Shown here: positions 3,577 to 32,703 of the stretch, piece after piece
Layout of the letters: each line of letters begins with the position of its first letter
Position numbering within the stretch: the stretch's first letter is position 1
DNA from: an uncultured Elusimicrobia bacterium
Lineage (GTDB): Bacteria; Elusimicrobiota; Elusimicrobia; Elusimicrobiales; Elusimicrobiaceae
Length of the DNA: 33,000 nucleotides
Assembly: GCA_945913025.1 (NCBI GenBank)
Contig: CAMECJ010000003.1
Coordinates: 167,746-200,745, forward strand
Reading direction: 5' to 3'
Translations under genes and position numbers: made by a program
Notes under the pieces: generated by a model
What the model was told of the DNA's origin: nothing
The model's input: the letters and a program-made list of their open reading frames with translations, nothing else
Database searches by the model: none

Positions 3577-4101
3577 CTAATACAGCACCAATCCCAAAAT
3601 TCCCGCGCACAAAATCGCGGTTATCGGGCCGGTTTTAAATTTCCAAACCGCCATAAATGCGCCTGCGCATAAAACGAGGCTTTTCCAATCCGCAAAATTT
3701 TCCGCATTACACAGCACAAGAGCGGCCGCCGCAATCAGCCCCACCACCGCCGGACGCAACCCCGCAAATACGGCCTCTACCGGACGGGCGTGCCGGTGCT
3801 TCAAAAAATACCGGCTGGCCAAAAGCATCAACAAAAAAGAAGGCAGACATACCGCAAATGTGGCCACCGCCGAACCCCACGCGTCGCCCGCTGCGGTATA
3901 ACCCGTATACGTAGCCAAATTAATCCCAATCGGCCCTGGAGTCACTTGGCTGACGGCCACGATATCGGTAAACTCGCCTGCCGTCAGCCACGCGTTTTTA
4001 AACACGACTTCGTTTTGAATGAAAGAAATCATCGCGTACCCGCCGCCAAAGTTAAAAAGACCGATTTTAAAAAACGTTAAAAACAGTTTTAAATAAATCA
4101 T
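3577..4101 (-). CDS. Chromate transporter family, half-size subunit (downstream)
   Basis: A 174-residue membrane protein of the CHR (ChrA) family. It carries the hallmark near the N-terminus, LFNFGGGYAMISFIQNEVV, then VAVSQVTPGPIGINLATYTGY, followed by four to five hydrophobic segments. Full-length ChrA is about 400 residues with two homologous halves; this gene and its neighbour each encode one half, the known 'short-chain CHR pair' arrangement. ChrA effluxes chromate with proton exchange, but many CHR proteins are untested for substrate. The start overlaps the upstream half by ATGA (4098-4101), so translation is coupled and a heterodimer is likely. I leave the symbol blank because chromate transport is unproven here. 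Confidence 0.88.
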   Translation of the reverse strand: MIYLKLFLTFFKIGLFNFGGGYAMISFIQNEVVFKNAWLTAGEFTDIVAVSQVTPGPIGINLATYTGYTAAGDAWGSAVATFAVCLPSFLLMLLASRYFLKHRHARPVEAVFAGLRPAVVGLIAAAALVLCNAENFADWKSLVLCAGAFMAVWKFKTGPITAILCAGILGLVLY

Positions 4102-4646
4102 TTTTTACCCCGCTTGTGTGATACGCGGCCATATAAAAATCCGCCGAAGCCCGCCGCCAGAACAACATAAACGGGAGATACTTTTAGCAGCCACACTAAC
4201 AGCGCGCAGCTAACGGGGATCCACACGCTTTTCCACGTAATGCCGGCGGTTTTGGCCAAATTAAAAACGGGTACGGCAATTAGCGCGACCACCGCAGGGC
4301 GCACCCCCATAAACACGCGGCGGACGACGGGATTATCCTGAAACCCGCGGAAAAAAACGGCAATCAGCAAAATGATGATAAACGACGGAAGCGCCGCCCC
4401 CGCTGCGGCAAACAAACAGCCCCAAAATCCGCCCGCTTTGTATCCGGAGATAATGGATAAATTAATCGCCATCACCCCGGGCGCGGCCTGCGCAACGGCC
4501 ACCATATCCAAAAACTCTTTGCGGGAAAAAAGCGCGCCGCCGTCGACGATTTCACGCTCGATAAACGGCAGCATAGCGTATCCGCCGCCCAGCGTAAACA
4601 GCCCGATTTTGGCAAACGCCCAAAACAAATACAAACACGTTTTCAT
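4098..4646 (-). CDS. Chromate transporter family, half-size subunit (upstream)
   Basis: A 182-residue CHR-domain membrane protein and partner of 3577-4101. Visible hallmarks are LFTLGGGYAMLPFIEREIV near the N-terminus and VAVAQAAPGVMAINLSIISGY, followed by hydrophobic helices and a basic C-terminal tail (RVSHKRGKK). The two halves differ in sequence, as expected for subunits inserted in opposite orientation. The ATG at 4644-4646 has no clear Shine-Dalgarno and lies 12 nt after the XRE regulator's stop, so it probably depends on translation of that gene. The gene order regulator, half 1, half 2 forms one operon. Confidence 0.88.
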   Translation of the reverse strand: MKTCLYLFWAFAKIGLFTLGGGYAMLPFIEREIVDGGALFSRKEFLDMVAVAQAAPGVMAINLSIISGYKAGGFWGCLFAAAGAALPSFIIILLIAVFFRGFQDNPVVRRVFMGVRPAVVALIAVPVFNLAKTAGITWKSVWIPVSCALLVWLLKVSPVYVVLAAGFGGFLYGRVSHKRGKK

Positions 4647-4658
4647 ACGGATATTTTA

Positions 4659-4910
4659 CTATTTTGACGTTTTGGCAGGCTGCATAAATAAATCCCCTAC
4701 GCTCACCCCAAGCCCTGCGGCGATTTTGCGTAAATTAAGAACGGCCACGTTTCGTTCGCCCCGTTCCACCCCGCCCATATAGGTGCGGTCCAAGCCGATT
4801 TCAAGTGCGAAATCTTCCTGCGAATAGCCGGCGGCTTTGCGCAGTTCGCGCACCCGCGCGCCGAGGGCTTTTAAATACTTACGGTCCTTTGCGGAATATG
4901 TGTTTTGCAT
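4659..4910 (-). CDS. XRE-family regulator resembling restriction-modification controller (C) proteins
   Basis: An 83-residue single-domain HTH protein. The helix-turn-helix spans about residues 15-70: LGARVRELRKAAGYSQEDFA, then LDRTYMGGVERGERN. The LDRTYxxGxERxxRN recognition-helix block is the one I know from C proteins of restriction-modification systems such as C.Esp1396I, which are of the same length. No methylase or nuclease gene is nearby; the downstream partners are two chromate-transporter halves. A matching operator-like palindrome lies just upstream (4929-4963), which suggests autoregulation. No Shine-Dalgarno precedes the ATG at 4908-4910. The family is firm; the controller-type role is inferred. 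Confidence 0.88.
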   Translation of the reverse strand: MQNTYSAKDRKYLKALGARVRELRKAAGYSQEDFALEIGLDRTYMGGVERGERNVAVLNLRKIAAGLGVSVGDLFMQPAKTSK

Positions 4911-4928
4911 ATTCTACAGAATACCCGT

Positions 4929-4963
4929 ATGATATTTATAAGTACACGGACTATAAGTATCAT
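4929..4963. promoter_or_regulatory. Putative C-protein-type operator between the regulator and the pilin
   Basis: A 35-bp imperfect palindrome bounded by ATGATA (4929-4934) and TATCAT (4958-4963), with two ATAAGTA half-site repeats inside. Read on the minus strand its core is ACTTATAGTCCGTGTACTTA. From memory, the C.Esp1396I operator contains ACTTATAGTCCGTGT, so the match is close and in the right place. It lies 18 bp from the regulator start and over the -35 region of the pilin promoter. Confidence 0.65.
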
Positions 4964-4966
4964 TTT

Positions 4967-4975
4967 TGATATAAT
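4967..4975 (+). promoter_or_regulatory. Extended -10 promoter of the pilin at 5001
   Basis: TGATATAAT fits TGnTATAAT. The expected start near 4982 gives a short leader with GGAGG at 4991-4995, 5 nt before the ATG. The -35 region falls inside the operator-like palindrome, so the regulator could affect this promoter. Confidence 0.65.
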
Positions 4976-5000
4976 ATCTTATCTTTGATAGGAGGAAACC

Positions 5001-5456
5001 ATGAAAAAAGGTTTTACGCTTATAGAACTTTTAGTGGTAGTATTGATTATCGGCATTTTGTCGGCCGTCGCGCTGCCGCAATACCAAAAAGCGGTTGCAA
5101 AAAGCCGATTTACACAGCTGGTAACGGCAGGGAAAAGTTTAAAAGACGCCATGGAAGTTTATTACATGGCCAACGGCAACTACCCCAGCTTCTGGCACCA
5201 ATTGGATATTGAATACCCGGGATGCGAAGAAAGCCCCAGCAGCCGTTATATGCTCTGGTGCGAAAAATTTGCCGTAGACATGTTTGCCGGTGAAAGTGCA
5301 AATCTAATTTTAATCGACATGCACGGCGTCGCCGATAAAACCAACCACAACCAAGGCCAAACCCGCTATATTATTTGGCTGGACCATTCTGACTATCCCG
5401 GTAAAACGACGTGCAACAGCACCGTGCCCGGACTGTGCAAAAGTATGGGATATTGA
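5001..5456 (+). CDS. Type IV pilin-like protein (orphan)
   Basis: A 151-residue prepilin. The leader MKKG is cut before Phe by a prepilin peptidase; the mature N-terminus FTLIELLVVVLIIGILSAV has Glu(+5) and the hydrophobic alpha-1 stretch that anchors it in the membrane and packs in the pilus core. Next come ALPQYQKAVAKSR and a variable globular domain with four cysteines, the last pair (CNSTVPGLC) near the C-terminus like a disulfide D-region. No pilus assembly genes are nearby. The gene has its own promoter and terminator, so it is a single-gene unit. Unlike the other two pilin loci here, it lacks the structured leader. Whether it is a major pilin, a minor pilin or a type II secretion pseudopilin cannot be told. 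Confidence 0.9.
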   Translation: MKKGFTLIELLVVVLIIGILSAVALPQYQKAVAKSRFTQLVTAGKSLKDAMEVYYMANGNYPSFWHQLDIEYPGCEESPSSRYMLWCEKFAVDMFAGESANLILIDMHGVADKTNHNQGQTRYIIWLDHSDYPGKTTCNSTVPGLCKSMGY

Positions 5457-32220: not shown

Positions 32221-32703
32221 ATGAACAACAGCTATACATCAAATATCCGCCAAGGGTTTACGTTGATTGAACTTTTGGTAGTGGTACTCATCATCGGGAT
32301 TTTGGCCTCTGTAGCGTTGCCGCAATACCAAAAAGCGGTGGAAAAAAGCAGAATGGCGGAAGCGGTTATTTTGGTAAAAGCCATTGCTGAGGCCAACCAA
32401 GTCTACTATATGGCTAACGGACAATACGCCGGAATTGGAGATTTAGAGTTATTAGATATTAATATTCCGGGTGCTATTTTTGAGGACGCCGGCACTAGAA
32501 CCCAGACAAAACATTTTATTTATTCACCCCTGGGAACCCTGGGCACGGAACTAGCCGTAGCACAAAGACAGCCGTTCAAACAATCGTATTATATTTGGAT
32601 ATCCCGCGAAGAACCGAATAAAATTAAATGCACGACTTATCCTCAAGTTTCTTCTATCCAAAAACAGCTTTGCGACCAATTAAACCAAAACGGCACGTTG
32701 TAA
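32221..32703 (+). CDS. Type IV pilin-like protein (orphan, with structured leader)
   Basis: A 160-residue prepilin with a 12-residue leader (MNNSYTSNIRQG) ending in Gly(-1), then FTLIELLVVVLIIGILASVA with Glu(+5). ALPQYQKAVEKSRMAEAVI continues helix alpha-1. The globular part is unlike the pilin at 5001, but both have 'YYMANGxY' near residue 60 and a C-terminal Cys pair (CTTYPQ...LC). AGGAG lies 5 nt before the ATG at 32221. It stands alone between tuf and the lipoproteins, with no assembly genes nearby, so it is likely a minor or variable pilin using machinery encoded elsewhere. Confidence 0.9.
   Translation: MNNSYTSNIRQGFTLIELLVVVLIIGILASVALPQYQKAVEKSRMAEAVILVKAIAEANQVYYMANGQYAGIGDLELLDINIPGAIFEDAGTRTQTKHFIYSPLGTLGTELAVAQRQPFKQSYYIWISREEPNKIKCTTYPQVSSIQKQLCDQLNQNGTL

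Follow-up and report, generated by a model that had tools for sequence, protein, structure and literature searches.

A predicted C-type autoregulator outside restriction-modification, with its operator facing a pilin gene, in Elusimicrobium

A small regulator, here named REG, is encoded on the chromosome of a gut bacterium of the family Elusimicrobiaceae next to an operator of the type known from restriction-modification (R-M) controller (C) proteins. Judging from the sequence, REG is probably a C-type autoregulator that acts outside R-M, activating its own gene and repressing the promoter of a divergent pilin gene. The constant unit among the related genomes is REG, its operator and the divergent pilin (12 of 13 loci), not REG and the chromate-transporter genes next to it. 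C-type self-regulating switches normally time restriction enzymes, and to our knowledge C proteins have been studied almost entirely in that role. No report of a REG-type controller in an arrangement with pilin and chromate genes, or of an orphan C switch of such a layout, was found in the open-licence literature. If the proposed function is true, a compact activator-repressor circuit has been reused for the control of a surface structure.

The host genome comprises 1.76 Mb in 27 contigs, and the window, i.e. the whole stretch of DNA analysed, covers 33,000 nucleotides of it. A Pfam scan identified an amidase, RNase E/G, cell-shape genes and a ribosomal-protein region elsewhere in the window, and the locus is therefore part of an ordinary chromosome. 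REG (83 aa; 4659..4910, minus strand) is followed, after a gap of 12 bp and in the same direction, by two half-size proteins of the chromate-transporter family, CHR1 (182 aa; 4098..4646, minus strand; Pfam PF02417, 9e-47) and CHR2 (174 aa; 3577..4101, minus strand; PF02417, 3.5e-51). On the other side, the plus strand encodes a type IV pilin-like protein of 151 aa (5001..5456), with a GFTLIE prepilin motif, a match to PF07963 (8.8e-8) and GGAGG at 4991. These gene calls and Pfam matches confirmed the positions given for REG, the CHR pair and the pilin in the original prediction. Its claim that no restriction or methylase gene stands beside REG was also upheld, as none of the 30 window proteins scanned, small open reading frames left out, matched a restriction or methylase family in Pfam. 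Since linked R-M genes are absent, REG is not filed here as an R-M controller. Control of an R-M system in trans was considered and rejected: methylases do exist elsewhere in the host genome (seven N6/N4 methylase matches; no match to the C5-methylase family PF00145), but a second operator core was not found in it at three or fewer mismatches. Near the locus, a weak match to a trypsin-like protease (3.2e-6) was seen at 1776-2489 and a YgjP-like metallopeptidase at 996-1637.

REG had been described as carrying the sequence block of C proteins, and it does so. The block LDRTY..G.ERG.RN is present, the PADLOC 'Control_protein' models match REG with a best value of 6.7e-21, and among the solved C proteins C.AhdI is the best match (1.7e-15), followed by C.BclI (8.9e-11) and C.Esp1396I (9.5e-9). 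REG has the residues aligned with R35, T36, Y37 and R46 of C.Esp1396I. R35, T36 and R46 are the base-contact residues of that protein (PMC4041747), and they are kept in all 13 REG orthologues. REG is thus a small helix-turn-helix protein with both the block and the contact residues of the C family. The C-family models do not separate R-M controllers from other proteins, because solitary relatives outside R-M score equally: the best scores of seven plasmid relatives, one of which adjoins a methylase, were 57-95 bits, while two true R-M controllers obtained 65 and 64 bits and C.Esp1396I 185 bits on its own model. A match to a C-protein model is accordingly no evidence of an R-M system. The median pN/pS of REG was 0.23 (78 pairs), indicating purifying selection, and REG likely works like a C-type autoregulatory switch.

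The operator, consisting of a left and a right site, is an element of 35 bp (4929..4963, minus strand) that shares 27 of its 35 bases with the C.Esp1396I operator. No other place in the 33-kb window agreed at more than 20 bases, and 300 shuffles of 4701-5100 gave at most 21. The reference 35-mer is present without mismatch in plasmid pEsp1396, where it immediately precedes the C gene, an endonuclease gene of the BstXI family and a methyltransferase gene. The predicted likeness of a 35-bp palindrome to this operator therefore held, the palindrome itself being imperfect with 12-nt arms that are 92 % complementary. Both operators have two TATA dyads 15 bp apart, and by its sequence a two-dyad C-box lies upstream of REG's own gene. 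The operator core ACTTATAGTCCGTGTACTTATA (4937-4958) was used as a pattern of 22 bases, 20 of them specified, in a search of 84,980 genomes. It had 13 exact matches, on every occasion just upstream of a C-type gene. Three of these places belonged to complete R-M systems of type II, found in Methylomonas, Pseudomonas putida and a genome of the Methylococcaceae, each with the C gene directly downstream, an endonuclease (PADLOC REase_II, 3/3) and a C5-methylase (Pfam PF00145, 3/3); the other ten were Elusimicrobium REG loci without adjoining R-M genes. When up to two mismatches were allowed in a scan of 340 genomes of the phylum, the core was found in 16 genomes, namely all 13 REG genomes and, at unrelated places, G084, G126 and G129, the two-mismatch cores of which had no C-type gene within the first 220 bases downstream. 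A viral origin was rejected, as the operator was found in 0 viral contigs and the 67 pattern stretches in viral contigs included no confirmed relative. Four phage records contained relatives, all of less than 60 % identity.

Intact REG was present in 13 of the 66 genomes of the genus, host included, and all 13 had the operator core, exactly in 11 and with one mismatch in two. Conservation of the palindrome, which the original prediction had set as a check, was thus found. The core was 98.6 % identical over all pairs, compared to 39 % at the four-fold sites of REG and 61 % in the 13-nt spacer beside the core. This conservation of the core and of REG shows that both operator and protein are under selection. 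C-terminal fragments of REG were observed upstream of CHR1 in two genomes, G028 (locus L072) and G079 (locus L100), where the regulator is therefore being lost. In a tree of CHR1 and CHR2 that covered 57 of 60 loci (G062, G063 and G082 dropped), at least eight changes were needed for the absence of REG under the starred branches. A single gain of the cassette was not supported. The patchy spread of REG together with the fragments speaks for repeated loss, and exchange is possible.

The divergent pilin is situated at the operator in 12 of the 13 REG loci, whereas a pilin is found upstream of CHR in 3 of 47 loci lacking REG, some of them cut by contig ends (Fisher test 4e-9, kinship ignored). 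Those three include G015, where another gene lies nearer than the pilin. Among the REG loci, the pilin frame of G072 is open for just 47 aa. The one exception, the nearest relative (G066, locus L070), has a gene for a 191-aa lipoprotein-like protein at the operator, with a TATAAT 22 nt away. At three of the 13 loci (G026, L119; G064, L103; G078, L121) REG, operator and pilin are inverted as a unit relative to CHR, and there the pilin points at CHR. The window pilin has the N-terminal motif for prepilin cleavage and methylation. Pilin-like genes are abundant in the host: the N_methyl prepilin motif matches 111 times in the 1.76 Mb, and 71 places are similar to the window pilin at E <= 1e-15, itself included. 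The pilins of the REG loci share 36-78 % identity (in pairs whose alignment covered most of both sequences) and are not clear orthologues; the window pilin has a paralogue of 72 % identity elsewhere in the host genome. Control of the pilin is the best-supported hypothesis for the target of REG.

The promoters on the two sides of the operator are predicted from conserved hexamers. On the REG side, the predicted -10 box TATTCT (4918..4923, minus strand) is separated from the operator core by 13 nt, and the start codon lies 7 nt further; in all 13 genomes the start codon is 25-26 nt from the core with a TAnnnT hexamer between them. As no ribosome-binding site fits before the start codon, a leaderless REG mRNA is predicted. 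C-gene mRNAs are commonly leaderless (PMC4824078). In pEsp1396 a candidate -10 box, CATTAT, which was assigned in this analysis, is also 13 nt from the core, with the C gene starting further downstream. On the pilin side, the predicted -10 box TATAAT (4970..4975, plus strand) is 11 nt from the core in the window and 11-13 nt from it in all 12 pilin-bearing loci, and by our own reading it is preceded by TGn in 10 of the 12. A recognisable -35 box of the pilin promoter was found in none of the pilin-bearing loci, and the operator occupies the place where it would be. The position relative to TATAAT thus bears out the predicted overlap of the palindrome with the pilin -35 region. From these spacings, the strong left site would be centred near -42 for REG, a position from which activators such as lambda cI work, and near -30 for the pilin, a position at which bound REG would block the promoter. 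The promoter geometry is compatible with autogenous activation followed by repression.

We propose that REG binds as a dimer to the strong left site TGATACTTATAGTCC. The dyad of this site is some 42 bp before the predicted start point of REG, and from there the dimer would activate REG's own weak promoter, which has no -35 box. The same dimer would cover the -35 region of the divergent pilin promoter, the stronger of the two, which has the left-site dyad near -30 and mostly an extended -10 box, and the pilin would be repressed. As REG builds up, the weaker right site at a distance of 15 bp would take up a second dimer, which would turn off REG as well. Such a switch would be self-limiting, with the pilin ON at low and OFF at high REG levels. 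No environmental signal for it was evident. C.Kpn2I offers a precedent for repression of the pilin: it acts as a repressor of a strong divergent promoter, probably by obstructing the -35 box, and thereby raises its own transcription (PMC6237814). C.Kpn2I differs in that the divergent gene encodes a methyltransferase and a binding site is also located inside its own gene, and its sequence is distant. REG could also activate the pilin in place of repressing it.

It is rather unlikely, although it deserves consideration, that REG regulates itself alone and that the pilin and CHR genes are merely neighbours with promoters that are close by chance. The REG core is the sole site in the host genome at up to three mismatches, and the left half-site occurred, with at most one mismatch, at 15 places (one exact, 14 with one mismatch) compared to 25 for the reversed-pattern control. 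As its near matches are not above this control, no wider REG regulon is claimed. The -10 box that CHR usually has of its own, the variable identity of the locus pilins and the single locus without a pilin also agree with autoregulation only. Such a reading does not, however, account for the much higher frequency of a divergent pilin at REG loci than at REG-less loci, nor for the distance between TATAAT and core staying within 11-13 nt. Combined autoregulation and pilin repression is preferred. A more far-reaching version of it, which we regard as unlikely, is that a restriction-type switch has been domesticated on the chromosome and provides a bistable ON/OFF control of one exchangeable pilin slot among more than 100 pilin genes. 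In this version the switch and operator are constant, while the adjoining pilin differs between species and the cassette as a whole undergoes inversion or loss.

CHR1 and CHR2 are tandem proteins with a single PF02417 domain each, as in half-size (SCHR) pairs, and did not reach the NCBIfam ChrA/ChrB equivalog cut-offs. By sequence family they are putative half-size chromate transporters. The original prediction emphasised a REG-CHR operon, and it would be consistent with REG being mainly the regulator of the transporter pair that REG and CHR1 are co-directional and 12 bp apart and that REG points at CHR in 10 of the 13 loci. This view is weak and its main claim improbable, because CHR is near-universal (CHR2 in 60 of 61 genus genomes, mostly without REG, as opposed to intact REG in 13 of 66), REG faces away from CHR in the three inverted loci and CHR1 has a -10 box of its own. 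The predicted box, TAAAAT (4653..4658, minus strand), lies directly after the REG stop codon and 6 nt from the CHR1 start codon. A similar element is found 4-8 nt 5' of the start in 47 of 59 genus loci, with or without REG, by a pattern that was broadened after the sequences had been seen; the background of the pattern is 0.33 % of all ATG/GTG/TTG codons. Its position suggests leaderless CHR1 transcripts in the genus. Where CHR lies downstream, in 10 of the 13 genomes, the REG transcript may continue into it, but a separate promoter for CHR is most likely also present. In addition, ChrS, known to regulate the half-size CHR pair ywrBA of Bacillus subtilis, is dedicated to that pair and of the Lrp type, not XRE (PMC8940164). 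Of the prediction that the switch controls transport and possibly piliation, the tie to the pilin (12 of 13) became the stronger part and the tie to transport the weaker. Likewise, of the suggested co-occurrence of regulator, transporter and operator, that of operator and REG was complete, while CHR mostly occurs without REG.

In a tree of 30 rows, which contained 12 of the 13 REG sequences (G030 entered from an inner start), a branch with 99/99 support separated REG from the Esp1396I-type controllers although the core is common to both; the tree came with long-branch warnings. REG did not cluster with the Esp1396I subgroup but grouped with AhdI-like and solitary C-like proteins. Plasmids contained 116 records matching REG, the best-ranked with 53 % identity, and of nine relatives sampled one had an annotated restriction-type methylase within 3 kb, in gene tables that are incomplete. 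Upstream sites resembling a C-box were found for solitary plasmid relatives of Aeromonas (17/20 core bases), Paraburkholderia (17/20) and Abditibacteriota (15/20), the other five sampled scoring 10-14/20 and the opposite-strand control of the same stretches 9-12. The C-box may therefore be an old property of the wider C-like family. The original suggestion that a C-type switch was captured from an R-M system found no support, as REG is on the AhdI/solitary side of the 99/99 branch and solitary plasmid genes also have C-box-like sites; such capture is possible. That REG and its operator are instead the drifting remnant of a lost R-M system, with R and M deleted, is highly improbable. Its placement away from Esp1396I, the median pN/pS and the near-invariant operator in 13 species all oppose such a remnant, even though the fragments in G028 and G079 show decay in some species and genuine R-M systems use an identical core. 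Furthermore, a search by length and motif only revealed no R or M gene among the open reading frames listed upstream in the genus loci.

Several known systems resemble REG in part. C.Esp1396I, from a type II R-M system, has the same dyad spacing, predicted -10 distance and base-contact residues and a largely identical operator, but controls an endonuclease gene, whereas REG has no R-M neighbours, faces a pilin and lies across the well-supported branch. C.AhdI is the closest solved relative of REG, yet it is an R-M controller; it and the solitary plasmid proteins, several of which have C-box-like upstream sites, differ from REG in the operator centre and have unrelated neighbours. HsdC of Mycoplasma gallisepticum is a C-protein homologue that gave gel shifts on the non-R-M promoters of clpB and a tRNA operon, but is still linked to an R-M operon and has another motif (PMC5282649). 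BswR of Pseudomonas aeruginosa, an XRE protein structurally close to C.Csp231I, controls motility and biofilm (PMC3985676); it acts via rsmZ and has another palindrome and no C-box. REG adds a chromosomal case in which a near-unchanged, experimentally known operator type faces a pilin in a host whose repertoire of pilins is very large, and the REG/pilin intergenic region provides a ready-made promoter pair. A further protein with a prepilin motif is encoded at 32221-32703 of the window, with a weak match to a ComP-type DNA-uptake pilin that is under the family cut-off.
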